Source of the DNA: Crambe crambe
Taxonomy: Eukaryota; Porifera; Demospongiae; Poecilosclerida; Crambeidae
Reading direction: 5' to 3'
Length of the DNA: 64,000 nt
Assembly: GCA_963924555.1 (NCBI GenBank)
Contig: OZ004585.1
Coordinates: 2,183,488-2,247,487 of the forward strand
A model generated the notes under the pieces. It was not told the origin of the DNA. It worked only from the letters and a program-made list of their open reading frames with translations, and did not search any database. This document shows positions 19,221 to 62,886 of this stretch, piece after piece. The first letter of the stretch is position 1. Each line of letters opens with the position of its first letter. Both the position numbers and the translations under genes were made by a program.

Positions 19221-19507
19221 GTAAATAAAAAGGAGAAGTAGGGATGGCAACAGCAACAACCTTTCAGCAACAAGGGAGTGAACTTCAGTCAAGTAACCCC
19301 TTGCCCATCACCAATATTACCGAACTACAAACTAACTATTCCTACTCGTATACTTCACTCCCTTTGTCATCTTGGCCTGTCATGGGAGTGAAGTATGGAT
19401 AGTTAGCTCGTAGTTTGGTAATATTGGTGGTGGTAAGGGGTACTTGACTGAAGTTCACTCTCTTGTTCCTGTTGCTGTTACCATCCCTACTTCTCCCTTT
19501 TATTTAC
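19221..19507. mobile_element. Palindromic element F (hairpin of about 285 bp)
   Basis: The left arm GTAAATAAAAAGGAGAAGTAG pairs with the right arm CTACTTCTCCCTTTTATTTAC, and pairing continues through AGTGAACTTCAGTCAAGTA and CACTCCC to the centre near 19370-19385. Each arm carries the TAGGGATGG motif shared with the other hairpin families, and the core (GTGAACTTCAGT, ATTCCTACTTCACTCCC) is related to element D at 30582. A second copy lies at about 61034. A transcript would fold into one long double-stranded stem. Confidence 0.8.
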
Positions 19508-20246
19508 AATATTATAATGAAACACTATAATTGTTTAAGCTATGAATGTTATCAGTTATATGTTTTACAAGTAAGGGAAAAAACATTTCGTGAAATGAAA
19601 AAAGATGCAGGGATGAGCACTGCTTAGTCTTTTAAAAGACTGGATGCCTCGGCACATAGTAAACTTATTATCATTTGATTTATTTTTGCAGGTATAGAGT
19701 TATACTGAAGACTACTTTTTGCATGTACTGTCATTATTATGTCTTTTTTTGTTTTTTTGTTTTTTTTGTTAATGCTATTCATAGTTATTATTTTTTTTAA
19801 GTGAGTGAGCTTTTATGGTGGTCATAGCTTTTCAGCTTTCTCAGCCTACTTGTGACTCTGTAGCTTCTGTTCTTGCTATTAAGGCTTTCTTGCAGGCTCT
19901 GCTAGATGATACTGAGCTTTGTACCCTCTGGTCTCGCTATTTATGGCTTTCATGTTGGTTTTCTTGCTTACTTTCTGTTATTATAACATGCCTGGTCTTC
20001 AGCTTTCTGCTTTCTCACAACTCGGAGTCTTAACTCGACTTTGTAGCTTCTGTTATTCGCTATTTAAGGCTCACTCTTGCTGTTCAGACGTTCATAAAAT
20101 CTTGAGGTTGTACACTCTGCTCTCGCTGTTTGCTCTCAGACAGTCGTTAACTTGTAGCTTGAGTGGTTTGAGAGATATGGTTGTCTAAGAATAATTGCAG
20201 CGAGCGAGCTGACTCTCAGGTCATGACTCATTGAAATTGTAAAATA
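19508..20246. other. Non-coding region with a hairpin-element end and pyrimidine-rich repeats
   Basis: At 19568-19612 is a lone arm (ACAAGTAAGGGAAAAAACAT, then GCAGGGATGAGC) like the end of element E, followed by GTCTTTTAAAAGAC. 19830-20160 is a T/C-rich stretch with imperfect repeats of TTTCAGCTTTCT and CTCTGGTCTCGCTATTTA types; open frames there (19815-20033, 19919-20188) have no recognisable product. 20157-20186 (GTAGCTTGAGTGGTTTGAGAG) recurs at 58226. Confidence 0.4.
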
Positions 20247-21177
20247 TCAGAGAGTGCGGTAGCACTCTCTAAGTAGGGATGGCAGGTCAAAGTCCATAGG
20301 ACAGTATAAACTAAAAACTCTTCTTTCTCTTCTACCCTTACTCTACAGGTTCTCAGAAGGCTACAGTGAATTATTATATCTACAAAGAAGAGAGGAGAAT
20401 GTTCAAAAGCCAAAAATTCATTCGCCAACATAAGAAAAAAACGAGTTCTAAAATTGACTTTTCGTTCTTTTTCTTTATAATAATCAGAGAGTGCGGTAGC
20501 ACTCTCTAAGTAGGGATGGCAGGTCAAAGTCCATAGGACAGTATAAACTAAAAACTCTTCTTTCTCTTCTACCCTTACTCTACAGGTTCTCAGAAGGCTA
20601 CAGTGAATTATTATATCTACAAAGAAGAGAGGAGAATGTTCAAAAGCCAAAAATTCATTCGCCAACATAAGAAAAAAACGAGTTCTAAAATTGACTTTTC
20701 GTTCTTTTTCTTTATCAGAGAGTGCGCTAGCACTCTCTAAGTAGGGATGGCGGGTCAAAGGTCATAAGACTGTATAAACTAAAAACTCTTCTTTCTCTTC
20801 TACCATTGCTCTACAGGTTCTCAGAAGGCTACAGTGAGATACTACTTCTACAAAGAAGAGAGGAGAGTGTTCAAAAACCAAAAATTCATTCGCTAACATA
20901 AGAAAAAAACGAGTTCTAAAATTGACTTTTGTTCATTTTCTTTATCAGAGAGTGCGCTAGCACTCTCTAAGTAGGGATGGCGGGTCAAAGGTCATAAGAC
21001 TGTATAAACTAAAAACTCTTCTTTCTCTTCTACCCTTACTCTACAGGTTCTCAGAAGGCTACAGTGAATTATTACATCTACAAAGAAGAGAGGAGAATGT
21101 TCAAAAACCAAAAATTCATTCGCTAACATGAGAAAAAAACGATGTCTAAAATTGACTTTTGTTCAATTTCTTTATAA
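20247..21177 (+). repeat. Tandem array of four A elements, about 232 bp each
   Basis: Four head-to-tail copies start at about 20247, 20484, 20714 and 20944. Each starts with a small palindrome (TCAGAGAGTGC..TAGCACTCTCT), then AAGTAGGGATGG, GGTCAAAG, a middle with CTACAGGTTCTCAGAAGGCTAC, and ends near ATTGACTTTTGTTC..TTTCTTTAT with AAT repeats. The first two copies share GCGGTAGC and TCCATAGGAC, the last two GCGCTAGC and TCATAAGAC, so pairs were probably copied together. Further single copies lie at 22729, 28618, 56909 and 58533. Open frames through the array on the minus strand are by-products. A terminal hairpin and tandem growth fit a Helentron-like non-autonomous element, but the ends do not settle it. 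Confidence 0.75.
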
Positions 21178-21204
21178 TAATAATAATAATAATAAGGATA
21201 ATAA

Positions 21205-22691: not shown

Positions 22692-22728
22692 TTATATTTA
22701 TTATCCTTATTATTATTATTATTATTAT

Positions 22729-22931: not shown

Positions 22932-23638
22932 CATAGATACTATAGACTACGTACACGGGATAGGAAACTAGATCACGTGCGCCATAGCCACAATAGGAAA
23001 TGACAATCCCACTCCGTGTCCACCGTTTCGAGCAGGAAGAGGAGGCTCCTATTCGCCGTATGCGGGATGTGCGTTACCTTATAGTCGCATTAATAAGATG
23101 AAAATAGTAAGTATCCTAGCTGAAAGGCTACTAATGCAAAAATTAAAACTGTAGGAGAGATATAAATGAAATTTAGGCCTATAATAGCTAGAAATACCAT
23201 GGAAACCACTTTTGTGGAACCATAAGTAATCACAGTCTAGCCATACGTAGCTGTTAAAGCAATAAGCCACTCATATTAACTTAGTTCTATGCGTTAGTAT
23301 CATTTCTAGGATAAAAATACGTTAGTTAATGATGATACAGTCACTGTATCTCCCTGAACACTCCAAAGTTTGTGGGACACCATGAAGGATATATTCAGAA
23401 ATGAAGTTATCTCCTGGTTATCATGACTTCCTTAAGAGCATAATAAATGAGGTTATACTGGTTTTATGTGCATGTTACTTCTATTTTGGTAGAAATGAGG
23501 CGTATAGCTATTGCATGTCTTTCTTTGTTGCATGGTAATAAGTCTTTGAAATGTATCTTATACTTATACTGGCATATAGAGTAGGGAGAATACTCAAATT
23601 AGCTACATAGTATGATGTTCTACTTATTCTTTAAAGGC

Positions 23639-26373
23639 ATGAGTCGGCGAAAGCTTCGATTTTATACCCCAAAAAACTGGGAGAGAAAATTGCAGCAGCA
23701 AAGACTTCTCATAAAAATTCCTCGAAAAGTAGCAGACAGAGCATTACTCTTTAGTCAGATGAAGAGTGTTGAACTTGAAGGATGGACCAAATTATATGTC
23801 TCCTCCACAGGGTCAATTGCAAGGATATGCAAATATGACCATTCCACAATTCCTTCAAAAGTATTAATCATGGTGGATGTTGAGGACAATGCATGCAAAG
23901 TGTATGCAGGATCCAAAGCTGTTCCTCTTTATGATAAAGCAGTGTCTAGTATATCAGAGTTACTTTTTATTCTAGAGCAGTTGAACACATATAGTATTTG
24001 TCCAGCAATTGATGATCCGAAGTTTAAACCTTTAATCGAGAAGCACGGTGGATTGTTCTATGACTGTCATGGTAAGAAAGTAGCTATAGAGATTATATAG
24101 TCATAGATCATTGTATACAATCAGTTACTTAATCTATCTTCTAATAAGGTAATATGATTGCTCAAGTAGACGACAAGACCATACGACATGTGAATTGTTC
24201 CATGTTGGTAAAGCCAGATGGAATCTGTGAACAGTGCAAGCTTTACAAGAAGAACTCTCTGTTACGTCAACTTAATCGTTTATTGAAAGATAACAAGGAA
24301 AATGATTTATGCTCTGCAAGTAGCCATGTTAATTATCGATTTCTTACCGGCATTCAAAAGAATGAGCGCCTTAAGGCACTGCACTCTGAGCTTCGTGCAA
24401 AATGTAGGCAGTTGCATTCACTTGAAAAAAAGATACAGCAGTTACATGAGAAGGAAGCAGTGACTTTGGATGATGATAGTGATTGTGACATGCGTGCCTT
24501 GGTGGAGAAATACTCATCTATCGTGATGAGCTCACAACCTGAAAACTCTAATAGGTCATTTCAATACTTGTTTTGGAAGCAGCAACTAGATGCTATCATT
24601 AAATCAGATGCACGATCTATTCGATGGCATCCTCTGATAATTAAGTGGTGCCTTTACCTACACCACAGATCAAGTGGTGCTTATAAAACATTACGGGAAT
24701 CAGGACTTCTTTCTTTACCATCTGGCAGAACACTTCGTGACTATCGCCATTTTGCTCCAGCTAAATCTGGATTCAGCACTGCATATGACCAGCAACTTCT
24801 CGATCTTGCTACAAAGACCAATTTTGAAATGGCAAAGAACATAGCGATCTTGATTGATGAAATGTACGTGAAGGAGGGATTGGTGTACAATAAAACTTCA
24901 GGGGCTCTTACAGGATTTGTTGAATTGGGTGACATTGATTCTCACCTTAATGAATATGAGCGTTCCATATATGAGCCAAAGAAACAAAAATCTTTAGCTA
25001 AAACCATAGTTGTCTTCATGGTTCGAGGAGTGGTGACCAGCTTGATCTTCCCATATACTATTTTCCCTGTGAGCTCGTTAAAGGGCTATAACTTATTTCC
25101 TCTGGTTTGGGAAGTTATTGGACGACTTACTCGTCACGACTTCAGGGTTTGGGCAATTATTTGTGATGGAGCCTCTATATAGTAATCGAAAAATGTTCCG
25201 CATGCATAGTTCAACAGGAGATGAAAATATTTTCAAAATCACTAATGTTTACAGTGAAGATCAGTATCCTATATATTTTATATGTGATCCTCCACATTTA
25301 TTGAAGACCATTCGAAATTGTTTTGCAAGTTCAACCCGAAATTTATGGGTAAGTTCATTCTGTGTGTCAATTTATGACCACCTTTTATATTCTTTTTATT
25401 TTAAAGTGTAAAGGCAGGGACATTAAATGGAGCCATATTATCAGACTCTACTATCAGAATGCTGGTGCAGCCACTGGTTTGTGCTTGATACCGAAATTGA
25501 AATATGAACATGTATATTTAACATCACGGTCTAAAATGCGTGTGGATCTTGCTGCACAGGTTAGACTGAGTTGATGATCATGCATATTAGCTATAGGCAT
25601 AAGAAACTTTTTTCAGGTCTTGAGTGAAAGTGTATCACTAGCACTTCATCTAACTGGAGGAGAACAAGCTCATGAAACTGCTAACTTCATTAACATTAAC
25701 AAAATAGACAAATTTTTTGATTCTCTCAATGTTACATCATTTGATGAGGGAAGGCTGAAGAGAAAGCCTTTTTTACAGCCTTACAGAAGTTCAACTGATT
25801 TTCGATTGAAGGTATGATGTAACGAGCTGCTATGTATGCATGCTGTTATTTATATACATTATAGTTTCTTAAAGATGAATTTTTGGGATATCTGGATGCA
25901 TGGGAAGTGAGTGTCAAGAATAGGGAAGGCTTCACTGATGTTGAACGAAGAAACATGATGTTAAGCAGGGAAACTTTGACTGGGATCAAAATTACAAGTA
26001 TGCTCTATAGTATTTTTTTCTACCACAATCTATATTAAACATGATAACTGTAGTTTCTTCATTCCTGGAGTTTGTGCCATCAATTTTGAAAGTGCCAGGG
26101 GTGACTGTCTTTTTGAGTGTAAAACTTAATCAAGATCCACTTGAGAAGTTTTTTGGCTGCATTAGACAACATGGTCGAGTTAATGATAACCCTACAGTGC
26201 TTCAGGCAATGACAGCCACACAAACTTTGCGAGTAGCTAACTCCCTAAGATTTGCAACAATCACTGGCAATTGCAGAGGAGCTAGCAAGAAGGAAAGAGT
26301 TGATGACAATGATGATACATGTAAGCTCCCAAAGCGAAAACAATCACGGAAAAAGAAACCCAAGAAACATTGA
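23639..26373 (+). CDS. P-element/THAP9-type transposase, six exons, one frameshift
   Basis: Exons read as 23639-24071, 24149-25348, 25407-25559, 25617-25811, 25865-25997 and 26054-26373, each bounded by GT..AG in matching phase (an in-frame ATG also exists at 23612). Joined length is 2434 nt, one base too many: at about 25177-25180 the frame shifts between ICDGAS and SNRKMFRMHS, the only lesion seen. A coiled-coil-like stretch lies at about residues 215-240 (LEKKIQQLHEK). RNase H-like catalytic residues can be placed: D in ILIDEMYV, D in YFICDPPHLLKTIRN and E in LNQDPLEKFFGCIRQHG, the last a hallmark of THAP9 and P transposases. IRWHPLIIKWCLYLHHRSS is also typical. I see no C2CH THAP finger in the first 145 residues; a small Cys set (CSMLV..CEQCKLYKK) follows. 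The product would cut and paste the element in the nucleus. Confidence 0.85.
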
Positions 26374-26463
26374 GAATTATAATTCCCCATGCATATCTGC
26401 TATTGTATTCATTGAACATAAAATGTAATTGACTGATTAAGGAGTGAGGTATATATAAACTAT

Positions 26464-27493
26464 TCAGATACTTTTCCTTAGAGGCTTTGATTTTGATGTG
26501 TTCTTCTTGCTGACTTGTTTATAAGTTTCCATAACTGATTTAGTGAAAGAAAATCCACGAATTGTTACATACTTAGCTACTATCAAACTTAAAATCACTC
26601 CTTTCTTATCTTCATCTATCATTCCTGCTGCAGAGCACCAGTTAAATAAAACATCTGAATCACCTAGAATGCTGTCATGTATTTCTTTCTTATCAAACTC
26701 ATTTGTAGTTGAATGGCAGCGAATACAATACTCGATGGCACTAAGAGTTTGGCAAAAGCCATCAGTAATATGAATAAGCCCACCTCTATCAACACAGCAC
26801 ACCCATTCATTTGAAGATGACATAGGAGAAGCTTCATCTTTGATCAGATATTTTGTGCTAGCTGACACGCTCTGATCCTTGGATATTGATTGAATGATAT
26901 AGCCACCTATGTAGCGGATAGCATTGATCTCTTCATATGAAAGATCGCTAGGAATGGTACCAACATCCTTTATTATTGGTAGAATAGAATCTATCAATAA
27001 CTTCAAATAAATAGATGATAAATACTGATACAAAGCTGGATCAGCGTTTAATTTTTGACTAGTTAAAAACTCTTCCCATTTCTCTTTGAAATCTTGTGCA
27101 CTTCGTATCTGGTGAAATGACACCCAGAGTTTCTCCCTCTTAATTTTTTTGGTACATTCTGATTGTGCACCATCAATTATTCTCTTTAGTGATGAATACA
27201 GCCAGTTAGAAAAATTTACAGTGCCTTTCTCAACTGCACAAAGCTGACTTAGAAGTCTCTCCAAAATTTCCTTTAAAGTTTTTGATTTCTTTGGACAAGC
27301 ACAAAACTCTTCATCTTTTAGGATACTGTCACAAGCTTCTTTGAAAAATTGAATGGAAATCATATCTAAAAAAAATTATTGTTACAGCACTGTTTTCTTT
27401 ATCATAGCTAGTTTCATATCTTAAGCTGTAATAATGCATAATGCAGTAGCTAGCTAGTAATGATAATATACCATTTTGAAGAGGAGACTCCAT
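26464..27493 (-). CDS. Second, convergent gene of the P-like transposon, function unknown
   Basis: A 299-codon frame (26464-27363) begins right after a pyrimidine-rich TTTTTTTTAG, and a matching donor exists at 27471: ATG at 27493 reads MESPLQN, then a GTATAT intron (27366-27471), then D-MISIQFFKEACDSIL in phase. The joined product is about 307 residues. It has no signal peptide or helix, is rich in charged residues, and shows SYEEINAIRYIGGYIIQSI and, further on, WVCCVDRGGLIHITDGF and AIEYCIRCHS. The YIGGYI motif resembles the C-terminal part of many P/THAP9-type transposases (Y-[IV]-[AG]-G-[YF]-[IV]), so it may be a split-off C-terminal module or a partner protein; this is inference. The gene ends 90 bp from the transposase stop on the other strand. 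The frame is undamaged, which suggests it matters to the element. Confidence 0.7.
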
Positions 27494-27670
27494 CCCTAGC
27501 CTTAGCCGCCGATTCGAGCTAGCTTTAGTTTGCTACTATTAAACTTTCTGTCGTCAAGAGAGACTCTCGTACGGCGAGGGTTAATTATGATATTACAGGG
27601 CCTAGGACACGGAGTGCAGGGGTTAATGGGCTAGTTTCCTATCCCGTGTACGTAGTCTATAGTATCTATG

Positions 27671-27703
27671 TCCCTACTTAGAGAGTGCTAGCGCACTCTC
27701 TGA
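27671..27703 (-). repeat. A element, smaller part, beyond the P-like transposon
   Basis: Starts with the second copy of TCCCTAC and continues TTAGAGAGTGCTAGCGCACT, the terminal palindrome of the A element, completing the part at 22729-22931. Confidence 0.85.
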
Positions 27704-29563: not shown

Positions 29564-30193
29564 GATCGACGTACCGACTTACTGGCTATAGTCATCAAAA
29601 TTCTGCTTTGGCCATCTGTTAGAGCGGCACCTAGAGGCTGATCTTTTGCTATTAGTTTTGACTAAGGCTCTACTTCACTATTCGATAGCACTCGGAACAC
29701 AGCTGCTAATCTTTCTACGCCATTTTGAAGGGGGCGGGGCTTATGGGCGGAGCCACGTAAGCTTAAGTTTAGCTATAGCCAAGGTCTTCATTCATTATCT
29801 GATGATGTTCCAGTCACTCCTTGCTGAATTACAGTACAGATGCTCATCCTATAGTAGCATTATAGCCAGTACTTGGCTGTAGTGTAGTCAGCTCACTTCA
29901 CCATGCCGTGTACATGTCATTTACATTGCTGTTGCTGTAAAGTTTTATATCAACAAAACTTAAATAGCTAAACAAATTCTTCAACCAGAGACACTGTATG
30001 TACCTACAAAAGAGGTTTATGTAGAGCTGGCTTCGTATAGTACTGTACTGTAGCCTCCCTCATTCAACTTCAAGCACTAAGAAAAAGGATAGAAACAAGT
30101 GAGCGTAAAAAATTTCTTCAAATAAAAAGGTTAAGTAGGGATAGCCTAAAATCTAGCTGGGCTATCTATAATGTGCTGCAGCCTCGTATGAAA
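29564..30193 (+). mobile_element. BC element 5, truncated in the hairpin
   Basis: B arm complete, but the C hairpin stops after its first arm (ACAAGTGAGCGTAAAAAAT to CTCGTATGAAAAAAATC), where unrelated sequence begins at about 30194. The B arm also has small deletions (for example at 29728). Confidence 0.65.
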
Positions 30194-30581
30194 AAAATCT
30201 TCGCGATATTACCTCATAAAAGGGGTGGGGCAATTAATAGCAGTTCTCCTCATATAACACCTGCACAGGATGTGGCCATTTGATGGCATCCACTATTATG
30301 ATCACTACACCAAATGCATAAACTCCCCATACTCCTCCCTCAAGCAAGACATACGTACCATCTCAATAATTATTTCAGTGATCACATATGTAACAATTAG
30401 CTAATGCTGTTCACTTTTTAAAATGTTCACTCCTTTCAGTACTCCATTACACTGCAGATGATCATCCTTCAAACTCTCCTCCCTGAACAGAATGAAATAC
30501 TGATCATTAAATAAATTTAGTTCAATCAAGGAAGCCTTTAGTGTCTATCAATTTTCATAATCACAAAGAAAAAGAATGCAA
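30194..30581. other. Non-coding region between hairpin elements
   Basis: No solid gene. A short minus-strand frame ending near 30218 reads EGGVWGVYAFGVVIIIVDA then KWPHPVQVLYEENCY, which looks like a membrane helix and tail and could be the last exon of a lost gene. Too short to call. Confidence 0.25.
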
Positions 30582-31030
30582 ACAAGTGAATGCAAAAAAT
30601 TTCTTCGAAATAAAAATGTGAAGTAGGGATGCTATTATAACTGCAGCTTCATTATGAAAACCAAGTACTGCAGCATCGAAGCAGTATGGCCCAAAAATCT
30701 AGCTGGAATATGTATTATAACTGCATGCAAGAGAGTGAATTTAGTGAAGTGACCCTTACCCACCATCAAGTACAAGATACTATTCCTACTTCACTCCCAT
30801 GATCAAGGGCCAAGGGAGTGAAGTAGGAATAGTATCTCGTACTTGATGATGGGTAAGGGTCACTTCACTAAATTCACTCTCTTGCATGCAGTTATAATAC
30901 ATATTCAAGCTAGATTTTTGGGCCATACTGCTTCGATGCTGCAGTACTTGGTTTTCATAATGAAGCTGCAGTTATAATAGCATCCCTACTTCACATTTTT
31001 ATTTCGAAGAAATTTTTTGCATTCACTTGT
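30582..31030. mobile_element. Palindromic element D (449-bp hairpin)
   Basis: Ends ACAAGTGAATGCAAAAAATT and its complement at 31011-31030. The arms pair almost without mismatch through GTGAAGTAGGGATGCTATTA, CAGCATCGAAGCAGTATGG and CACTAAATTCACTCTC to a centre near 30800-30815. The outer 50 bases follow the same plan as the C hairpins (ACAAGT, A-rich spacer, AAGTAGGGAT), but the inner 350 are different. A half copy is at 57160-57351. Confidence 0.85.
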
Positions 31031-31040: not shown

Positions 31041-31571
31041 ACAAGTAGCTAAAGGAAAAAAACATTTGAAAAAAATGAAAGTTGATGTAGGGATGACAAA
31101 AATAGTGTACAAAAAAAAAAAGAAACAAGGAAAGAAATTACGAAAAGAAAATGTTTGATTTATTATCATCCCTACATCAAGCCAAGGAATTATTAGCTAT
31201 ACTTTGACTATTCAGCTAAGTAGCTATCATAAGATGTTCGATGATTACCATATGAAACAATAAAAAATATATAATGGTACAACTATAGTATAGTATTATG
31301 TACTATAGCTGAAACCACCTGCTAAAATGTGCTAAGAGTGACTGCTAATAGATTTTCATCTTTGAAAGAGGACAGCCTCTCTATTAGAAGGTTTCTATTA
31401 TGGTAGATAGCTAGTCCATTGCTATACCATTGATAGGCTTGATGTAGGGATGATAATAAGTCAAACATTTTCTTATCGCAATTTCTTTCCTTGTTTCTTT
31501 TTTTTAGTACACTATTTTTGTCATCCCTACATCAACTTTCATTTTTTTCAAATGTTTTTTCCGTTACTTGT
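31041..31571. mobile_element. Palindromic element E
   Basis: Starts ACAAGTAGCTAAAGGAAAAA and ends GGAAAAAACATTTG (reverse strand) with TTACTTGT at 31571. The arms (about 31041-31190 and 31438-31571) pair through GATGTAGGGATGACAAAAAT and CAAGGAAAGAAATT. The middle, about 250 bp, is not palindromic. It is separated from element D by only ten bases. It shares the ACAAGT end and TAGGGATG motif with C and D, but not their interior. Confidence 0.75.
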
Positions 31572-32664
31572 TTTCTTTCTGCCTACGCATATGCCCTTGG
31601 TATGAAATCAAAAGGTGGGATAGATACATATTAATTTTTTTATAGAGAACTATACTTGCTCGTCCCCAGGTTTGTGGAGGCGGTCAATAGAGCACTCTTT
31701 GCACATGCGCCAAAAATCCGATTAGGTGGATTTGTAATCTACTCTCAGTCTTCTGTGACACATGATGCAATGTGCTGAATCTGCACTGTGGTAGACAGCT
31801 ATGTACTTCTTCTCGGACAGCTATGTGTCTTTTACATCCTATCTCAGCTGGGACAACCCCATCTAGTACTGAACAAGGATAGCCTGAGGCTGCATGTGAT
31901 TATAATCTCCTCTGGCTTAAATTATTATATTTTTTATATTATAATTTATACATACTAGCTATCTGTGGTTTTTTTGTATAATTATAGCTATGTATATTAT
32001 GTTCTTTGTTCCATCTCACAAATGTGGGTACGTCACACTAGTGATTGCACCCGGATTTGACTTCATCCTTGCATTATCTCATCCATTCAGCTCTTGTTCC
32101 AAGACCAGTTAACTAGTCATCCCTACATCACCTTCATTTATTAGAATAAATACTTGTTTCTTTCTTCTTTAAAAAAAAAAATCTTTTTGCAGGAGGATAT
32201 TGGAGCTGTAGCTATCTACTCATTATAGCTGATTTTGTGATATCTTTTTGTAGGAAGTAGTTAGCACTTTTTTTTCCCCTTAAGTTATTATAACTGTTTT
32301 TAATATTAATTCTATGTTATGCTGAATAAAGTTCATAGAGTGGTAGGGGAAGGAGGCAAGGTGGTCTGTAGCTGTTCTTGTTTCATGGAATTTAATTTCA
32401 TACCTCTTGTGGTAAGGGATTAAAATCTTCTAACTAGCTGAGTTCATAGATAAAAGAAGGTGAAGGGATAGAGAGCTACGATCAGCCTGTCTTTCGTTCT
32501 AAATAATGCACAACTCACTGGGCTCGAGAAAGCTTACCATTCAAAATTTACATGCTGTTGTTACAGCTCAGCTAATAGCTAGCTAGGATAACTTACCTTA
32601 GAGCTGACTATTATTCTGTTCTATCTATGCTCGAAATGGCTTTTTGCTTCGATGAGATCGAGAG
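31572..32664. other. Non-coding region
   Basis: No gene. At 32115-32153 is a lone arm of the hairpin type (TAGTCATCCCTACATCACC then AGAATAAATACTTGT). The rest is AT-rich with T homopolymers. Nothing else recognised. Confidence 0.35.
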
Positions 32665-35116: not shown

Positions 35117-38100
35117 TTTTTTTTTTTTTTTTTTTTCAGTGTAGGAGATAAAATAGTGTAGAAGATGGATAAAACAGTGTAGAGGATAAAACAGTGTAGA
35201 GGATTAAAAAACAAAAGTGAAAAAAGGGTCAACAATTCATGTGTTCAGTCTGTATATCCTGCTTCCGAGGATGCAAGGTCAACAGGAGGGAGGGGATCTC
35301 TGGCTGCCCGTCCAGCAGCTGAGCGGGCCCCTCTGATACACTGGATGGACGATCGTAGAAGGGCAAAGCTCAGCGAGCATCTCAGCCAGGCCATGGTGGA
35401 GCTGTACGTCTGATCTCTTTTCTGGGCAAGCATAGAAGCCAGCCTCTTATAGCACACTGTTGCTGCAGCTCCCATGCCTCCAGTCAGGGATAGTACTAAA
35501 GGTGTAAATGTGCCATGTTCTATCTCCCTCACCCGCTGGTCATAGGCCCGTTTTTTGAGATTTTCATGCTTTCGATAGCAAGAAGCAATGGGCTGGCTGT
35601 TTGACTGTGCGTGGGGGTTGAACACACGGATGTCGAAAAATGCCTTCTCATGTCTACCTCCCCAGAATCCATTGGCGGCCACGTCCAACCTGGCACCATC
35701 GGTGGCAATTGCAGATGCTCCATCAAGGGTCTCCCCAGACAGCGGTTGCAAATGTGGTTCAGTGCATACATCATGACAGACCTCCGACAGTAGTGTGGCC
35801 GTGAAGTCTCTCACTTCATTATGGCGCAGGGTGGGGAAGCCACCCTTGGGGCATGAAAGGGCATGTTGGATGGAGAACGACACACCACAAGCACAGTGAG
35901 TTGGAGTGTGAAGAGGAGACCAACCATATCTCAGAGCAAGGGCATCACGAAACGCACCCTTATGGAGGGAGAAACCAAGCTCCCTGATTGGGAGGGACGT
36001 TAGCCAGCTCGAGGCACCCCTTTCTTGGGCCAAGTCCATGGCCCGCTGCAGGGAACCTGGTAACAAGTTCTGGACAGCCGACACAGCCCTTGTCTCCTGG
36101 GTCCTTTTGCTGGTCTTCAGTTCAGATTTTGCGGAAATTTGAGCAGCAATGCACTCATAGGAGTACTCATCACACTGGGTTGAGATTTGGGTGGCTAATG
36201 GACCTGCAATGGCTGTTGAAGCAGCGTACTCGTGCAGAGAGGCCTTGGTGGGATTTACAATGGCCAGCCCCCCCAACCTTGTAGGGAGAGCAAGAAGGTC
36301 ACGTACGGTATCATCTGGAGGGGCCCTGCCAGTCAGTGCCGGAATAAAGGTGGTACGTAGAAAATCCTCCAGAGGCTCCAATTGGGGGGCTATGTCAGGA
36401 GTAGATCTGCAGAGATACGAGAACTTATGCAGGAAGCCGTGGGTGAAGGCTGCATAGGCTGCGTGAGGCTGAGACTTGGTAATGTCCACTAGAACCTGCA
36501 ATTCACTGACCCAGCTGTTAACCTTCTCTCGGACAAAATCTTTTGTGTAGTCATCAGTACCCAGTGGAGCTCCCAGGTATGGCCTCCCATGACAGGTGAT
36601 ATTGACATTGGTATCATGGAACACCTCCTTCGCCCTATCAAGGTGCTCTTCCTTGGTCACCAGCCAGGTCTTGGAGGCGTTTGCGAAGTAGCCAAAAGCT
36701 GGACCGATCCTGGATAGCTTGTCCCACCAGGAATGGACAGAAGCAAGGCCTCCAGATGCCGACGCATCATCAGCATACCAAACCTGCTTCACCTCCCCTT
36801 CACTATCTAGGTGTCGGATTAGTGGGATGGTGGCCAATGCATAGAAAGGCATCGCAAACGGATCTCCTTGGGTGGTACCTTCCTCAGATGATAGAGTGAC
36901 ACCGTCAACAAACAGTTCAGTTGGTACTCGGTAGGTGTTGATGAGGGCAGTAGCTAGTGAAGGACAGATGTATTGGACATTGTGGAGGGCAGTCTCCCTG
37001 TTGAGTGAATTGAAGGCATTACTCGCATCAACTAAGAGAACAGCTTCCACGGCGTCTGTACCCAACTCTTTCCTCACAGAGTGTATTGCTGCCTCAATGC
37101 CAGCAATCTGCCCCCCACAAAGTTGTCGAGTCCCAGCAGCCTCCTGAACATCCTGTTTGGTGACATACAGAATGGCCTTAGCGATAATCCTCCGGACAGT
37201 TTCGCAGACCCCGATGGGGCGCACACCCGGGCACTTGTCGAGGGCAATCAGCCGACAGGCCAGGAAACTTGAGAGACCCTTGGGATCCACCAGGGAGGTG
37301 CAAAGGCGTCTTGCAAAGAGGGCGAGAGAGTGGCACAGCTCCTGTGAGGGGGCATGAAAGGATGTACATAGCCTTCTCCAGCAATGAGCATCAAGACCAG
37401 AAGGGCCTGCAGCACCCTTGGTCGATAAGGCTGCCGAGCGGATGGAGCTCGCATCAATGTTGTCAAAGATGACAGGATGTATGGTTGGTGGATCGGGACA
37501 GTTTGCAAGAAGAGCATCAGTAGAGGCAGGCTTGGCAGAAGGGTGCTTGGACTTTAATACATCCAGGACGGTGGATGACAATGGGTCATCCTTGTTGACG
37601 TGGTCCGATACTCGAAGCACACCTCCTGCCCCCCTACTTGTGAGGAGGTCCAAAGCAGCACCAGTCTTGCCCCTGAACATCAAGTTGGAAAAAATCCTTG
37701 CCACATTCTGGTCCTGCTTCTGGCGCGGGGCTCCCCTGGGGCCCTTGGGTAATCGCTGCTGAAGACACCTGCCTTCTTCCAGGAGAGTACAGATATCACC
37801 CTTTGTCCAGAGACCCATGCGGCGCTCTAGACAAGCAATTAGCTCCTTGGTCCTCGCTTTCCGTGAGGGTTTTTGGAGGGTGAGAACTGAGAGTACCGTA
37901 ACAGCTCTCATGGCGACAGGTTCCAGGGCAGACTCCTCTGCATGGGCCCTGAATAGTCTAGCCAGCTCCATCACAAACTTCTTACCCGCCTTCCCCTGGG
38001 GCACTTGAAAGAGGTTTCTCCTCCAGTGCACAACCTCCTGATAGGCTGTAGCTAGGGTGGCTGAAAATGATGATGAGTCGAGGTCACCCCACCTGAAGGT

Positions 38101-38513: not shown

Positions 38514-38521
38514 ACTGGCGA

Positions 38522-39088
38522 TTAGACTGTATAAGACTTATTACACGAGTCAGCGCAGCTGACGAGTGTAATAAGTGATTTATTCTTACAGTACACAACA
38601 TATGTCACAACTAACAAGTCTAAGGAGTGTTTATAGCCATCATATAAACATACGTCTGTAGGAAGCTGTTATGAGAACCTGTAATACTCACCACGAAGCA
38701 CTTTAGATAAGCCTAGCAGCCTACCGGGCCCTACAAACAACTAATGCACTTCGACAAATCGCTGTAAGATTCAATTAAGCTTCCCTATCATCTTCAGAAA
38801 TGTCGGCCAAAAAGGTTACTAGGCCAGTCTGCGCATGCGTAGTATACCGTTGAATATAGCCGTTGAATATGGGGATTTATTCAACGGCTCGTCTATGGGG
38901 AAAATATACTAGTGGGCGTGGTCTGCAACAATGCGCATGTGATCGTGATCGTGACAGACGCCCGCGCGTGACAATTTCCCCGCATATTGAATCCTCCCGC
39001 CCGCGGCCCGCAGCACTTATGTGATGTCTTCTTGGACAGGAAACTAGGATTTTATATTAGTGGCCACTGCGCGATCTGTGTAATACGT
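38522..39088 (+). promoter_or_regulatory. Probable promoter region of the PARP-like gene
   Basis: 38535-38575 has an inverted repeat (ACTTATTACACGAGTCAGC against GCTGACGAGTGTAATAAGT). 38935-39010 is unusually CpG-rich (GACGCCCGCGCGTGAC, CCGCCCGCGGCCCGCAGC) and lies 80-150 bp before the ATG at 39089, as expected for a promoter or transcription start. The call is an inference from composition and position. Confidence 0.4.
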
Positions 39089-46540: not shown

Positions 46541-49500
46541 AACTACCCCAATATTTTAGAAGTGGGTTGCCCATCTACGTATTAAGGAAGAACATTTTGG
46601 ACATTAGCTACTGGGTAGTTGTTTTGTCATGGGCGTAGCCAGGGGTGGTTCAGGTGGTTCGCCTTTTCAAAATGAATAAAAATATTTTAAACGTGAGTGT
46701 GCGCTATGCACGTATGTGCATTCGTGAACGATTGATCTATCGATCTTGAGCTCGAATATGACCTTGTTCCCAGGCCACAAGGCTAGAGCTCGAAGCGAGA
46801 GAGAAACGAGTTAGGCAAAGCCTCTTATTATTTTCGTCCAGAAGGTCAGTTTTACTTATAACTCAGCCCTACTGAGCAATTAGCAGCTTAGTGCCTGAGA
46901 CTATGACTATAAAGTATAAATCTTGCTGTAAAAAACTGTAGATAGCTAGCAGATTGTAGAAGTGGTATACCATCTTCATCATCTACTCATCTTCATACTT
47001 TCCCTGCCTTCATATGCTGCATTGCAGCTGCTAGCGTTTTGTTTATGATTTAAAACATCGTAATATCGGTTATCAAAAGAGGGCGTGGTTATAGGAGAGT
47101 GGGCATGGTCAGGCCAAAAATTTTCCACGCTAACGCACGGGTAATTTTAGAACCCCCTATCAAAAAACTCTTGTTTTGTGATATGTGATTATAAAATTTG
47201 CTAAGTTATTTGCATGCCAGCCCCAAATTTTCCTACTCCATTGTCAAGTAACCTACTATAATATTTATTTTATAGACTCCTAATAGTCAGTCAGGACAGT
47301 CTGTATCCCATGTATCTATACCAACATTTGGTCAGTCAGCAGAACATTTACGGACAAGTCTACAGAGCAGTATGCATTCGAAACCACCCAAAGCATTGAT
47401 GACAGAGTTAGCATCAGAGGCAGTCACTTTTTGTCAAAGTCGAACAAGATCACAGAGCTTTGTGCATTCAAAACCACCCATTTACTCCACGGAGTCATCA
47501 TCAGCAGAAGTCACTTCTATTCAAAGTCGAACAATATCACAGAACTTTGTGGATTCAAAACCATCCAAACCATTGATAATGGAGTCATCTTCAGTGGAAG
47601 TCACTTCTAATCAAAGTCGAACAAGATCACAGAGCTTTGTAGATTCCAAACCATCCATTCCTTCCAAACCATTGATTACAGAGTCATCATCAGTGGAAGT
47701 CACTTCCATTCAAAGTCGAACAAGATCACAGAGCTTTGTGGATTCCAAACCATCCATTCCTTCCAAACCATTGATTACGGAGTCATCATCAGTGGAAGTC
47801 ACTTCCATTCAAAGTCGAACAAGATCACAGAGCTTTGTGGATTCCAAACCATCCATTCCTTCCAAACCATTGATTACGGAGTCATCATCAGTGGAAGTCA
47901 CTTCCATTCAAAGTCGAACAAGATCACAGAGCTTTGTAGATTCCAAACCATCCATTCCTTCCAAACCATTGATTACGGAGTCATCATCAGTGGAAGTCAC
48001 TTCTAATCAAAGTCGAACAAAATCACAGAGCTTTGTAGATTCCAAACCATCCATTCCTTCCAAGCCATTGATAATGGAGTCATCTTCAGTGGAAATCACT
48101 TCTAATCAAAGTCAAACAAGATCACAGAGCTTTGTGGATTCAAAACCATCCATTCCTTTGGATTCAAAACCATCCATTCCTTTCAAACCATTGATAACAG
48201 AGTCATCATCAATGGAAGTCCTTTCTAATCAAAGTCAAACAAGATCACATAGCTTTGTGGATTCAAAACCATCCATTCCTTCCAAACCATTGATAATGGA
48301 GTCATCTTCAGTGGAAGTCACTTCTAATCAAAGTCAAACAAGATCACAGAGCTTTGTGGATTCCAAACCATCCATTCCTTTCAAACCATTGATAACAGAG
48401 TCATCATCAGTGGAAGTCACTTCTAATCAAAGTCGAACAAGATCACAGAGCTTTGTAGATTCCAAACCATCCATTCCTTCCAAACCATTGATAATGGAGT
48501 CATCTTCAGTGGAAATTACTTCTAATCAAAGTCAAACAAGATCACAGAGCTTTGTGGATTCAAAACCATCCATTCCTTTGGATTCAAAACCATCCATTCC
48601 TTTCAAACCATTGATAACAGAGTCATCATCAATGGAAGTCCTTTCTAATCAAAGTCAAACAAGATCACAGAGCTTTGTAGATTCAAAACCATCCATTCCA
48701 TTGATTACGGAGTCATCATCAGTGGAAGTCACTTCTAATCAAAGTCGAACAAGATCACAGAGCTTTGTAGATTCCAAACCATCCATTCCTTCCAAACCAT
48801 TGATAATGGAGTCATCTTCAGTGGAAGTCACTTCTAATCAAAGTCAAACAAGATCACAGAGCTTTGTGGATTCAAAACCATCCATTCCTTCCAAACCATT
48901 GATAATGGAGTCATCTTCAGTGGAAGTCACTTCTAATCAAAGTCAAACAAGATCACAGAGCTTTGTGGATTCCAAACCATCCATTCCTTTCAAACCATTG
49001 ATAACAGAGTCATCATCAGTGGAAGTCCTTTCTAATCAAAGTCAAACAAGATCACAGAGCTTTGTGGATTCAAAACCATCCATTCCTTCCAAACCATTGA
49101 TAACGGAGTCATCATCAGTGGAAGTCACTTCTAATCAAAGTCGAACAAGATCACAGCATTCAAAACCACCGATTTACTCCAAACCAGTCATCATGGAGTC
49201 ATCATCAACTTCCATTCAAAGTCAAATGATATCACAGAATTTTGTGCATTCAAAACCACCCATTCCTTCCAAACCAGTGATCACAAAGTCATCATTAGTG
49301 GAGGTTAGTTCTATTCAAAGTCGAAATATGCCACAGAGCATTGTGCATTCCAAACCATTGATCACAGAGCCATTAACAGTGGAAGTCACTCATCTCCCTT
49401 CTACCATAACAAATGTACAAGAGAAATTATATCATCATTTCAAAATGGTAGGGGAAATCAAAGGCCAGCCTGCTGTTCACATCACTGATGAAGCACAGTA

Positions 49501-54765: not shown

Positions 54766-54767
54766 TG

Positions 54768-54799
<32 letters not shown>

Positions 54800-57139: not shown

Positions 57140-57159
57140 TTATTATTATTATTATTATT

Positions 57160-57351
57160 ACAAGTGAATGCAAAAAATTTCTTCGAAATAAAAATGTGAA
57201 GTAGGGATGCTATTATAACTGCAGCTTCATTATGAAAACCAAGTACTGCAGCATCGAAGCAGTATGGCCCAAAAATCTAGCTGGAATATGTATTATAACT
57301 GCATGCAAGAGAGTGAACTTAGTGAAGTGACCCTTACCCATCATCAAGTAC
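57160..57351 (+). mobile_element. Half copy of palindromic element D
   Basis: Starts ACAAGTGAATGCAAAAAATT and follows element D (30582) to CCCATCATCAAGTA, i.e. one arm only; at 57352 unrelated sequence begins. The second arm is missing. Confidence 0.75.
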
Positions 57352-57450
57352 GCGTGGTGAGCTCATGAATTAAATCAGCTGACTATTATCATATGACGTA
57401 GCTACACCAGCTAGCACTACAAGTACTATAGTATAGCCCTACAGATCGAG

Positions 57451-58020: not shown

Positions 58021-58312
58021 GGCAGCTGAGTAATATTATAATTTCGAATAATTGGATATCAAATACATGCGCATGCGTATTATAGAAAAGATGGCTTCCT
58101 AATTGAATTAGTCGAGTGCTGTGCTCCTTAGTGTCTCCTTTTTCATCGACTCTTTCGAGGATCAACGAGTAGAAAAGATCGTAGTTCGTAGAATTTGGAG
58201 TGGATTTGTCCAGAAATCATAGCTGTAGCTTGAGTGGTTCGAGAGATATGGTTGTCTAAGAAGAATAATAATAAGAAGAAGAATAATAATAATAGAGAAG
58301 AAGAAGAATATA
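58021..58312. other. Non-coding region with AAG/AAT repeats
   Basis: 58226-58256 repeats the GCTTGAGTGG.T.GAGAGATA block seen at 20157. A run of AATAATAAGAAGAAG-type repeats follows (58260-58310). No gene. Confidence 0.4.
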
Positions 58313-58502
58313 GCGATTTACCTGCTTGCCGTATTTCTGAAACGGTAAGCTCCCTGGTCCTGAAACTTGGTCTGCACATTGTAGTAGGCTCTAGTAGGCT
58401 GGATAATCATTCACAGTAGCTTTTGTTAGGTCTAAGTGGGGGAACTGGAATTTCACTTTTGTATTAGTCTATAGGCGGCGCGCGCGGCCGTCCGAGTCAT
58501 CC
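58313..58502 (+). repeat. Left copy of a 190-bp inverted repeat pair
   Basis: Nearly identical in inverse orientation to 62887-63076. It starts GCGATTTACCTGCTTGCCGT and ends GGCCGTCCGAGTCATCC, with a GC-rich GGCGGCGCGCGCGG core. Both copies have exactly the same length, and the AAG/AAT repeat adjoins both at the same end. The two copies could be ends of one 4.8-kb element or two copies of a dispersed repeat. Confidence 0.75.
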
Positions 58503-58532
58503 CTACATAGAGAGTGCTACCGCACTCTCTGA

Positions 58533-58762
58533 TAAAGAAAAAGAACAAAAGTCAATTTTAGACATCGTTTTTTTCTCATGTTAGCGAATGAATTTTTGGT
58601 CTTTGAACATTCTCCTCTCTTCTTTGTAGATGTAATAATTCACTGTAGCCTTCTGAGAACCTGTAGAGTAAGGGTAGAAGAGAAAGAAGAGTTTTTAGTT
58701 TATACAGTCTTATGACCTTTGACCCGCCATCCCTACTTAGAGAGTGCTAGCGCACTCTCTGA
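58533..58762 (-). repeat. A element, single copy (reverse) preceded by an A-element tip
   Basis: A unit on the minus strand ending CCATCCCTACTTAGAGAG and the GCTAGC palindrome. Immediately left (58497-58532) is the tip of another unit (CATCCCTACATAGAGAGTGC, TACCGCACTCTCTGA), so at least one and a bit tandem copies. Confidence 0.75.
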
Positions 58763-59467
58763 TGCCTGCTACATGCTCCACCACAAAGTCAAAGTGGTGT
58801 ACTGCTGCATAGAATACGAGACAGCACAGGAGATACGTACATCAAATGGGAGTCCTGAGAGGTACAGCTATGAAGAACTTGCACAACAACCATGTTGTCT
58901 GTATCAGTGGAAGCGACTGCAGCTACCATGCTAGCTGGGGCCCCACAGTGAAGCCGCAATCACAATTGGCACCAACTCTTTTGCAGAAATGTAGGTCGTA
59001 TTCCAACTTGCAACCATGCTCTTGGGAGAAGGCACCACAGCCAAATGAACCTGATGCATCTGATGAAATCAGTGGAACCAATGAACCCTTGAAACCAGTG
59101 GGAACCCATAGAACCAGCAGAACTAATCGCCAGTGAAACCCATGGAACCAGTGGAACCCAAAAGCCTACAGAACTCCTGGAATCATTTGAACCCATGGTA
59201 AAAGTGTACTTCACCACGTCCTAGCTCCATTATGCAGAGCAGCTCCAATAAGGTTTAATGTGCAGATTAGAGGATCCAGGTCCATCACAAGAGGGGTACA
59301 AATTAGAGGGAGTGAACTAACTGTATGCTAAAAATGTACTTTTTCCATGGATACTTGTTAATCTGGAAACATCATAGCTACTTTGCAAGTTTTGGCAAGC
59401 AAAGACTAGTCTAAGACAGGGAGGGAAGTTTTATTTTTTGGTTTCATCATTATCTCTTCTTTACGGA
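58763..59467. other. Region with weak coding signs and a GAACC-type repeat
   Basis: 58763-59136 has open frames (for example SGSDCSYHASWGPTVKPQSQ, NEPDASDEISGTNEPL) but no ATG, splice context or family that I recognise. 59070-59200 is built of imperfect AACCCATGGAACCAGTGG-type repeats. Coding status undecided. Confidence 0.25.
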
Positions 59468-59830
59468 TCATCCCCAAAAAGTAGAACGAAATTTTTTGTA
59501 CTCACTTGTTCTTTGTTTGTAAGTACATGCACATTTTTTAATGGGTATGCGCACCTCAATTATCTTGCACATGCTTTTAATTATTGAATTGTCATGACTG
59601 TGTATGCCAGTTCCATAGGTTCTGCTTGTTTCATCATTCCATGGGTTCTGCATAGAAACTGCTAGAAAGGCAATAAAGATAATCTGAAGGAAAGTAAACA
59701 TGATTTTCTGTAGACTAAGTATGACAGCTTAACTCTTTCAATCCTATCGATGATTTATCCGTAGATAATGCAACTTTTATAGTAGCTTAATATTCGCCAT
59801 CTCATGTGATACCAAAGATAAATTCTAGCA
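59468..59830 (-). pseudogene. 5' relic of a GABA-B-like receptor
   Basis: The minus strand reads MFTFLQIIFIAFLAVSMQ, matching the signal peptide of the intact receptor (MNTFVQIFFIVFLAVSIHA). The flank up to about 59830 matches that gene's upstream region (ATGCAACTTTTATAGTAGCT, ACCAAAGATAAATT). After the signal peptide the similarity ends. The right part (59468-59505) is a hairpin-type arm (ACGAAATTTTTTGTACTCAC then TTGT). So the promoter and first 18 codons of a third receptor copy remain. Confidence 0.65.
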
Positions 59831-60252
59831 GATTATTTAATATCATTATTGAGAAAATTATCAAAACAAGTCACATATGAACTATCACATACGTACATAA
59901 ACTACTTTCTATTTCCTAATACACTTTATTTTAGAGACAGAGAGACATCTTTAAAGGAAATAACAGTTAGTATGCGAGTTATCTCTACCTTGAAAATACA
60001 ACAGTGCAATACGGATGTGTCATGTATACATAGACTATTTTCTATTCACACTTTTTGACCATAGGCAAGATGATTGTTAAGCCTGTAGTGACTACATTGG
60101 CTTCTAGATAAGTTATTTACTAATGATGTTTCTCTACTAAATACTTTTATACATAAGGCATTCCATAACATACGTATTCTTCTTAGAATAAAATATCAAG
60201 TAAAAATGGGCTTGTTGAAATTTCTGTGGTACTACAGTGCACTATGTTTAGC
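59831..60252. other. Non-coding region
   Basis: AT-rich. A GAGACATCTTTAAAGGAAATAACAG block (59942-59968) has relatives at 62380 and 62509. No gene. Confidence 0.3.
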
Positions 60253-60448
60253 AGTCCTAGCACATTGAAGGTGTTCTGTCTTTAAGTTAGGAGTTGCCGA
60301 CTGTAGGAGGGAAGTATTCTGGAGTTATAAAAGAAAATAGTCCAATGGGGCATTCTGTGCCATCCCTACTTAAACTCCAGAATACTTCCCTCCTACAGTC
60401 AGCAACTCCTAACTTGAAGACAGAACACCTTTAATGTGCTAGGACTCA
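60253..60448. mobile_element. Palindromic element G (about 195-bp hairpin)
   Basis: The left arm (AGTCCTAGCACATTGAAGGT, GGAGTTGCCGACTGTAGGAG, TATTCTGGAGT) pairs with the right arm nearly throughout; the centre at 60318-60362 is unpaired and carries CCATCCCTACTTAA, the shared motif. The right-arm outer part continues into the repeat also found at 40430 and 42840. Confidence 0.7.
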
Positions 60449-61033
60449 AGTATGAAGAGCAGAAGATAAAGCAGTATCATTTTACAGCGACTTCTAAAAT
60501 TGCCAATTGCAAATTCATCTGGCTGTTCATCATCATCATCATCATCAAACAACTTATTTCAGAAATGATTCATTCAGATGCTATAATTTTTATATCACAC
60601 TACTCAAAATTGACTGCTCTATAATCCTTTTCCTTTAACTCGACGTGTTCAAAAATAGAACGTCATTTTCCAACTTGCTAGCTTTCAACCTACAACGTGG
60701 CAGACATTTTTATGCCCCGCCCTCGTACACGTGATTCTTGGACCTTGACCTCAGCTTTATCTCTTGATGTTGGTCTCTCGATGCTCAGAACGTAAACCCT
60801 ATATAGGCACTATATAGATAAATCAAGCCTTGATGCAACAGTGTATCAGGTACATATCAGTAAAGGCCTTTAAAAAATGGCCAATGGCAATCTTATTATA
60901 AACTGTATAGATAGCATTTATAGTTCTTCAGATCAGATTATTTCGGCTCATAGCTACGATATTATGATGAAACCTCCAATGAAGTACATATAGCTACAAT
61001 ACATGAACTTTAACTTGGATAGCAGGATCAGCC
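60449..61033. other. Non-coding region with a dispersed repeat
   Basis: 60449-60720 matches 40450-40600 and, in part, 42870-42990 (GCAGTATCATTTTACAGC, a CATCATCATCATCATC tract, TTCAACCTACAACGTGG). The rest is AT-rich. No gene. Confidence 0.4.
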
Positions 61034-61216
61034 AAGTAACTTAACCCCTTTACCCACCACCAATATTACCAAACTATGAGTTAACCATTCCTACTTCACT
61101 CCCTTTATATCTCATCTTGGCCTGTCATGGGTGTGAAGTAGGAATAGTTACGTAGCTTGTAGTTTGGTGGTGGGTAAGGGGTTACTGAAGTTCACACTCT
61201 TGTTGCTGAACCATAC
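61034..61216. mobile_element. Palindromic element F, second copy, cut by a P-like element
   Basis: Matches element F (19221): AAGTAACTTAACCCC, CACCAATATTACC, ATTCCTACTTCACTCCC, then the return arm to CACTCTTGTTGCTGAACC. The outer part with CAGCCATCCCTAG lies at 62353-62366, beyond the P-like element inserted at 61217. Confidence 0.65.
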
Positions 61217-62345
61217 CATAGATATACTAGACTACGTACACAGGATTGGAAACAGGGCATGCGCGCGTAGAATTTATAGACCATCCGTGTAGGTACCTGG
61301 CGAACAGAGAAATCTTACACAAAATAAGAAAGAGGATGAAAGGCAAGGTATTTAGCGCAGCAATAATTATGATTATAAGTGAAAAGGCTCAATGACCTAT
61401 AGCTGTAGTAGTTTATCATGTCAGTTTAGTCTATTTACTGTTGCTATGGAAGAAAAACGTGGAAACAGGTGACTGAAAAGTTTTGTGGCACTCCTACTAC
61501 TAAAATAGAAGTCTAGCTGCCTTACTTTTGGTATAAAATGAAAGATACTAGTTGACCATATGTACTCAAGTAGTTTTAATTTTGTGCAGGGCTGGAGATG
61601 ACATGCCATTTGCCATTGATGGTTTAAGAAGCCATTTCACTATGTTGTTGTTCTTATATGAGGAGATGAGATACCTTCTTGTATCAGGGGCAGGAAAGGA
61701 TACACTGGGGCAGCTTTACTCTTCATCTTGATCCCTCAAAACAAGTATATCATAACAAATCTCTCGATGAATTGGATGTTCAGCAGTGCACTATCAGTAC
61801 TTGTTATTATCATTTTTTAATTATAATATGAAAGGAAATAATATGTGTAAAGTGACAGTATTAGTTGTTACATTATAGTATCCTTCTTTACTATAGCTTT
61901 TCTTGACAGCCAGCCATGGGTAATCTGAAGAAACAGTAACATCAACATGATTTTTTTACAGGCACCTTTAAAAAGTACATATGTACATATAAATGATCAC
62001 TACCTAACAGATTAGTGGGGAAAAAGAGACTATACTTTTAACATCCAAGCTCCAGAGGTCCACAAAGTCGAACTACCATTGTTACTCGCAATTATACCCT
62101 CTAACACTTGAGAAACCAGCCTTTTTAAGAACTATGCTTGTTTAGCACTATACTAGCCCACTCTTTGCATTCTTTGAACTTACCAATTGGCTATAGTTTA
62201 GCAGAAATTTGGCACACTACTTCTCCTCCCCTGTTCGTTTGGGGCAATTTAGCACGAACAGCTGCCTACACGGATTGTCAGTATTGTCGTTATGGGCGCA
62301 CGTGATCTGTTTCCAATCCTGTGTACGTAGTCTAGTATATCTATG
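61217..62345. mobile_element. Non-autonomous P-like element, 1129 bp
   Basis: Inverted ends of 38 bp without a mismatch (61217-61254 and 62308-62345), starting CATAGATATACTAGACTACG, closely related to the ends of the 4.7-kb transposon at 22932. Flanks ACCATAC at 61210-61216 and 62346-62352 are a 7-bp target duplication. Subterminal GATCACGTGCGCC (reverse strand, about 62295-62307) is shared with the left end of the larger transposon. The interior has no significant frame. It would depend on a transposase supplied in trans. Confidence 0.85.
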
Positions 62346-62352
62346 ACCATAC

Positions 62353-62886
62353 ACAGCCATCCCTAGAATATTTATTTTCTGAGAGACATCTTTGCATGAA
62401 GTGACACATGCTGTTAAATGAGATAACGTTATGTGTCAATGTGTGAGCCTAATACGGATGTATCATGTATACACAAATTTTGATACATAGACCATTTCTA
62501 TTTTCCGAGAGACATCTTTACATGAAGTGACACATGCATGGTCACAGGTGCATGTAATTGTTAAAGGAGATAACAGTTTATTATGCGAGTCATATAAATA
62601 CAATACAATACAATACGGATGTGTCATGTATTCATAGACTATTTTCTGAGCGATATCTTTGCATGAAGTGACATACAATAATGATGAAACCTCCTATGGA
62701 TACAGTGTAAACATGAAAGTTTGTTTGCAAAAAGGTGATGAATAAGTAGCTACGTATAGGGAAAAAAATATTTATTCTAAATAAAAATAGGCAAATAGGG
62801 ATGGCTGTGTGTAAAGGTCAAAAAGTTCATGAAGAGAGCCTACCCCACCTAATTTCAATAACCACACCCATATTACCCAACTACTC
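62353..62886. other. Non-coding region with direct repeats
   Basis: Two to three imperfect repeats of GAGAGACATCTTTGCATGAAGTGACA type (62381, 62507, 62648), each followed within about 70-110 bp by TACGGATGTRTCATGTAT. 62735-62830 is an ACAAGT-like arm with AATAGGGATGGCTG, shared with 12668-12760. No gene. Confidence 0.45.

Follow-up and report, generated by a model that had tools for sequence, protein, structure and literature searches.

In Drosophila virilis, the fold-back element Tetris and the miniature inverted-repeat transposable element (MITE) DAIBAM have terminal repeats with common ends (PMC4079207). Galileo, a P superfamily element of Drosophila, has long and variable fold-back arms into which interior sequence has been recruited (PMC3688188, PMC3573991, PMC4168063). 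Two families of pineapple MITEs, associated with microsatellites, have similar terminal repeats (PMC8449440). In yeast, template switching between the arms of inverted repeats yields both arm homogenisation and spacer inversion (PMC8604942). Below, we describe palindromes and single arms with similar features in a 64,000-nucleotide window of the genome of the sponge Crambe crambe (assembly GCA_963924555.1, contig OZ004585.1, positions 2,183,488 to 2,247,487, forward strand). Coordinates are those of the window and the elements are listed in Table 1.

On balance, we lean towards reading the palindromes and single arms as remnants of non-autonomous, MITE-like fold-back elements with common ends, the arms of which have been homogenised by template switching. 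In this scheme, element ends would carry ACAAGT and then, 26–48 bases inward, the inward-reading word GTAGGGATG(G). The plan they have in common would be most simply explained by a single unseen transposition machinery that reads, or once read, this end. The arms of each hairpin would be kept alike by arm-to-arm copying, for which template switching, or the repair of folded hairpins, is the likeliest route. The same copying would also reverse loops. In the window, copies of the C hairpin spread inside a larger repeat, in many places next to (AAT)n, and not by separate insertions. What we infer is that the elements moved by way of this end, that one factor served both of the end types described below, and that template switching made the arms alike. 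Common machinery is suggested because related ends sit on partly unrelated interiors, as in Tetris and DAIBAM and in the pineapple MITEs. A preliminary description of the locus had proposed a shared trans-acting factor. This is a natural reading of such ends, although the window yielded neither a factor nor an autonomous copy, and no target duplication of the palindromes.

The same description drew attention to ACAAGT ends with an internal TAGGGAT motif. The whole window contains 50 copies of TAGGGAT where 7.97 are expected, and 0 of 100 shuffles reached that count. By our assignment, 47 of the 50 occurrences fall within repeats totalling 7,068 bp; the remaining three lie within the transposon P1 (27492), at 40137 and at 56389. 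A large share of the excess arises because repeat copies are counted repeatedly. Thus, when later repeat copies and arms were masked (17,439 bases), 13 occurrences remained (6.1 expected). The longer words fared better. After masking, GTAGGGATG was found 8 times (0.30 expected) and GTAGGGATGG 5 times (0.06 expected). With short-period repeats set aside, these were the 9- and 10-letter words in greatest excess. Chance does not, therefore, account for the longer word. The masked counts are not fully independent because the mask missed diverged relatives. Exact TAGGGAT followed ACAAGT or ATAAGT, 20–59 bases from its start, in 18 pairs; 40 second-order Markov sequences gave a mean of 0.23 and a maximum of 2. 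All 18 pairs derive from five contexts (C, D, E, 32157 and 62742). With one mismatch permitted, there were 27 pairs (5.6 expected, control maximum 12). The earlier observation is partly borne out. The motif is present in A, F and G, as had been claimed, and also in B and K. In G it is confined to the right arm, past a transposon insertion.

We built a hidden Markov model (HMM) of 49 positions from five C and D ends. Matches were found at 59509 (15.1 bits), the left end of A (12.4), 62766 (10.6), 12684 (10.1), the right end of A (9.4) and 32151 (8.5). Across 100 Markov windows the best match was 11.0 bits, and no window had more than two matches of at least 8.4. As a set, these six further ends exceed chance; singly, only 59509 and the left end of A score above every control. 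The matches span 23–36 of the 49 positions, so ends of this type are related over 25–50 bp. The arm at 19567 scored only 6.2 bits and the E ends were not listed. Conversely, an HMM of the two E ends matched 19567 (16.0 bits) and 32145 (12.0 bits), with a control maximum of 9.1. The D ends scored 7.4–7.8 bits with this second model, which is noise level (7.4 was reached in 9 of 100 control windows). Taken together with their controls, the two models indicate two end types. One type comprises C, D, A and several single arms and the other E, 19567 and 32157. Relatedness of outer ends across families holds for the C/D type, and the E type stands apart. The single arms reported earlier exist (12682, 19567, 32157, 59509 and 62742), but only those at 32157 and 62742 have exact TAGGGAT. 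At 19567 and 59509 the motif is CAGGGAT and TGGGGAT respectively, and TAGGGAT is missing at 12682.

For arm-to-arm copying, the evidence comes from the C hairpins. Seven had been counted; six are hairpins and the seventh copy is a half arm. The flank GGATAGAA (once GGATGGAA), which we call the N flank, lies on one side of all seven copies. The larger repeat that holds them occupies 21.2–22.7, 27.7–30.2 and 53.8–55.3 kb. (AAT)n adjoins several of the C copies, and the half D, on one side; other C copies have different sequence there. The C copies are not independent insertions, because all seven carry one flank within the larger repeat. They multiplied in the window inside that repeat, often with an (AAT)n border. 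In six of the seven palindromes with intact ends (five C, D and E), T precedes one end and A the other. The exception is C2 (21854), where A precedes both ends. With the six hairpins oriented by the N flank, we compared the agreement of each arm with its own partner to that in all 720 pairings. Own partners agreed in 142 of 162 variable cells. No more than 2 of the 720 pairings did as well, namely the true one and a single alternative (mean 118). Without C6 (54799), which bears a deletion, 59 of 65 cells agreed and 2 of 120 pairings were as good (mean 39). Changes were joint at sites 7, 9, 10 and 93, and in a length change at 73–75; site 53 was joint in five of six hairpins. Site 31 and a deletion at 90–91 changed in one arm only. 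Loop orientation relative to the flank was the same in five of six hairpins and reversed in C2. The C arms thus change together. The snap-back mechanism suggested previously is partly supported, in the form of copying between arms, and the one inverted loop of six is what template switching would give.

The element interiors had been described as quite different. We compared 21 pairs, with 300 shuffles each, and 17 were unrelated. The four related pairs were A–D, A–G, D–G and C–D. On retesting with 5000 shuffles, the C–D score was reached by 5 and the A–D score by 0. A, D and G have a core in common, and D additionally has a C-like stretch. The two arms of D are identical at 216 of 220 bases, and in both the outside is C-like and the inside A/G-like. 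D is a mosaic of C-like and A/G-like parts. The notion that hairpins take up new sequence finds support in a single case, in which a C-like stretch is joined to an A/G core in both arms.

Several observations weigh against a mobile fold-back origin. No target duplication was found: 0 of 11 palindromes had a direct repeat of at least 4 bases within 3 of the ends. The same test recovers the 7-bp duplications of the transposons P1 and P2. Within 14 bases, four palindromes give merely a neighbour's ACAAGT or ACTTGT. In the same test, C4 (29272) has the 7-base AAGGATA at unequal offsets, a length also attained by 35 of 400 random pairs. We also considered the 7- and 10-base spacers separating facing hairpins as target duplications, and the flanks had no match to them. 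A palindrome duplication could lie concealed in (AAT)n on one side. No autonomous partner was seen within the window. Exact element patterns gave 0 matches in viral and prokaryote contig collections, a null of little weight given the source of that DNA. None of the best-ranked literature matches, in a search that left most subscription journals outside its coverage, was a publication on these repeats, and we make no wider claim. Furthermore, A, B, F, G and K have GTAGGGATGG unaccompanied by ACAAGT, and what the E type demonstrably shares with the C/D type is only ACAAGT, GTAGGGATG and the spacing. Comparison of the A and D arms was mixed, with 6 sites consistent with joint change and 9 with a disagreeing arm pair. 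Finally, the one flank common to all seven C copies gives no sign of independent insertion.

Three alternatives deserve attention. The one that survives best, although we consider it unlikely, is retroposition: the elements would be copied through RNA by a LINE- or Penelope-type reverse transcriptase, the enzyme or its RNA would recognise the shared end, and (AAT)n or (ATC)n would be the tail. It stays live because the same word lies next to a strong hairpin in both B and K, near microsatellites. Both have a common hairpin-plus-GTAGGGATGGC end and carry the word TTCTAAAATTG near microsatellites at the opposite end. The terminal hairpin of B folds with a z of −5.6. K contains a GIY-YIG frame (42501–42893, minus strand, E 0.0019, under the family cut-off) that is perhaps a Penelope-like remnant. 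The GIY-YIG domain is known from Penelope-like elements. However, (AAT)n flanks units on both sides and separates head-to-head units, and is therefore target-like as much as tail-like. Nor does a one-ended tail predict palindromes carrying the same end twice. Outside B, K and the left end of A, folding of the end is no better than chance. Thus, folding from end to motif, on the strand opposite the motif, gave z below −2 in 4 of 20 contexts (A-left, B, B-58499 and K42), where 13% of 120 random stretches fell below −1.5 and the K40 context was centred a few bases off. A general hairpin between end and motif accordingly holds for B and K, perhaps A-left, only. The best Rfam matches of K had E values of 2.4–4.3, which is a further point against retroposition; a hammerhead-like stretch that we had suspected in K was unsupported by Rfam.

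The second alternative, which we judge improbable and place just behind retroposition, does without mobility through this end. Here, GTAGGGATGG would be a hot spot at which breaks or insertions occur, or a site for a host protein; the palindromes would have formed in place by template switching in ordinary repeats. The lack of duplications at the 11 palindromes fits this view. So do four junctions that lie in or beside the motif: the P1 insertion, 58498, the end of the half C at 30199 and the inner junction of F. At 58498, a repeat beginning GATGACTCGGACGG meets a B unit, which is cut there within the GTAGGGATG word. This repeat has two copies (58298–58502 and 62887–63094) that are 97% identical. 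F duplicates part of the K repeat in inverted orientation. The count of four junctions was, however, made post hoc and had no control, and the relatedness of C/D-type ends extends beyond the motif itself.

The third alternative is improbable too, and we rank it behind the other two. It holds that the palindromes are Galileo-like: fold-back derivatives moved by a transposase of the P superfamily like the one in P1, for which TAGGGAT would be a subterminal binding site. In Galileo, long arms of the fold-back kind occur together with duplications of 7 bp and subterminal THAP sites (PMC3688188, PMC4168063). P1 has frames matching TNP-like RNase H N (E 1.1e-18), GTP-binding (3.1e-5, at the cut-off) and RNase H C (1.4e-11) families. 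These Pfam families (PF21787, PF21788 and PF21789) match in separate frames, with one PF21788 frame at and one below the cut-off. In having an RNase H-like transposase with a GTP-binding insertion, 40-bp perfect terminal repeats and a 7-bp duplication, P1 resembles the P superfamily. Its duplication, TCCCTAC (GTAGGGA), lies in the motif of a B unit. P2 has, by our reading, 39-bp terminal repeats, and its duplication ACCATAC (GTATGGT) adjoins TAGGGATGG in palindrome G. Both transposons are thus inserted in or beside the motif. On the other side, the P1 and P2 ends (CATAGATA..) and their common subterminal word TCCGTGT are unlike the palindromes, and across 400 bases at each of the four P ends there is a single exact TAGGGAT. 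No THAP domain was matched in the nine P1 frames scanned, of 61 frames of at least 35 amino acids (aa). The palindromes have neither the 7–8 bp duplication (11 tested) nor the ends shared with a P-type transposase element that would place them with Galileo. P1 and P2 look like neighbours and not an evident driver, because their ends and TCCGTGT differ from the palindromes; P1 as driver is unsupported. A phmmer comparison of the P1 RNase H frame with the PDB gave a single match (E 0.53). P1 also has a second frame of 303 aa (26464–27375, minus strand, opposite the transposase frames) with no Pfam match even at E 5.

It is very unlikely that a single module, GTAGGGATGGC, is read across palindromes of the fold-back type, tandem units with hairpin ends and a repeat linked to a Penelope-like remnant, with one host or element factor moving or rearranging all of them and turning captured sequence into long hairpins.

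Table 1. Positions of palindromes, single arms, repeats and transposons in the window.
Feature	Position	Strand	Remarks
Single arm	12682–12740	+	related to 62742; no TAGGGAT
Palindrome A	19221–19507	.	self-match; GTAGGGATGG close to either end, no ACAAGT
Single arm, E type	19567–19625	+	ACAAGT, 41 bases, CAGGGAT; E-end HMM 16.0 bits
B	20246–21175	+	4 tandem units of ~230 bp, each beginning ATCAGAGAG..CTCTCTAAGTAGGGATGG
Hairpin C1	21587–21846	.	
Hairpin C2	21854–22119	.	loop reversed with respect to N flank
P1, P superfamily-like transposon	22932–27670	+	40-bp perfect terminal repeats, 7-bp duplication
Hairpin C3	28338–28603	.	
Hairpin C4	29272–29531	.	
Half C	30095–30199	+	single arm, stops at inner motif
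Palindrome D	30582–31030	.	outer part C-like, core A/G-like
Palindrome E	31041–31571	.	TAGGGAT at both ends of each arm
Single arm	32109–32157	−	exact TAGGGAT
K repeat	42193–42965	+	opening bases match hairpin and motif of B
Hairpin C5	53853–54112	.	
Hairpin C6	54799–55046	.	left end truncated; right arm with 9-base deletion
Half D	57160–57351	+	one arm adjoining (ATT)n
B unit and first 36 bases of a second	58498–58763	−	cut within motif
Single arm	59447–59509	−	TGGGGAT in place of TAGGGAT
Palindrome F	60253–60446	.	part of K repeat inverted-duplicated; motif at inner junction
Palindrome G	61030–62380 (core 61042–61184)	.	right arm interrupted by P2
P2, P-like element	61217–62345		inside right arm of G; duplication ACCATAC
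Single arm	62742–62820	+	ATAAGT; TAGGGATGG 54 bases from ATAAGT start

As in MITEs and fold-back elements, C, D, E, A, F and G all have terminal inverted repeats or form a near-complete palindrome. The arms of A are identical at 115 of 124 aligned bases. The window has 15 stop-to-stop frames of at least 150 aa and none is inside C, D or E. Rfam gave no match at gathering scores. MicroRNA-like matches over the junction of C1 and C2 were below threshold (best 52.9 bits, cut-off 88), and we read them as chance on an AT-rich palindrome.

Elsewhere, several copies of a single membrane-protein-like gene, partly broken, lie in tandem at 1–12000, with long matches ~78–96% identical. A 592-aa copy (7145–8923) has no Pfam match at 0.001. 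At 35245–38469, a frame of 1074 aa matches reverse transcriptase weakly (E 7.2e-5, under the cut-off) and sits in a GC-rich island (0.50 in 36001–40000). A frame at 47276–49358, upstream of a WWE/PARP frame, has long internal tandem repeats (a 99-bp unit and multiples). The window also encodes an ANF-domain receptor of the class-3 seven-transmembrane type. This receptor and the WWE/PARP protein indicate an animal source, perhaps one resembling the sponge Amphimedon.

Should the shared end prove to be a genuine recognition site, a natural series of single arm, half, full hairpin and mosaic hairpin would be preserved in the window. Such a series would show fold-back elements gaining and duplicating sequence in an early-branching animal. 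The long, near-perfect hairpins could also give rise to small interfering RNAs (siRNAs). A report on the sponge Amphimedon describes multi-mapping clusters of endo-siRNAs as structured and as mapping to transposons (PMC6211395).

The elements belong to a kind already known. Like Galileo, they have long, variable arms with interior sequence recruited into them and would have subterminal binding sites. Chimeric Galileo copies, moreover, lack matching duplications (PMC3688188, PMC3573991, PMC4168063). Conversely, the end sequences differ, and the palindromes in the window have no P-type transposase tied to them. Tetris and DAIBAM have ~220-bp tandem repeats in their arms, and, as for the elements here, no autonomous partner of theirs is reported (PMC4079207). 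Unlike the palindromes here, Tetris makes duplications of 8–10 bp (PMC4079207), and the 230-bp units of B sit outside palindrome arms. In the pineapple MITEs, microsatellites conceal the duplication, as may be so here. There, the microsatellite is (TA)n, and 9/10-bp duplications of other copies provide a link to Mutator (PMC8449440). In the window it is (AAT)n, one-sided for most hairpins, and there are no copies with informative duplications. Finally, the template switching described in yeast acted on short arms in genes, whereas the arms here are ~100–220 bp and lie in repeats; in both settings, arms are homogenised and a spacer is inverted (PMC8604942).

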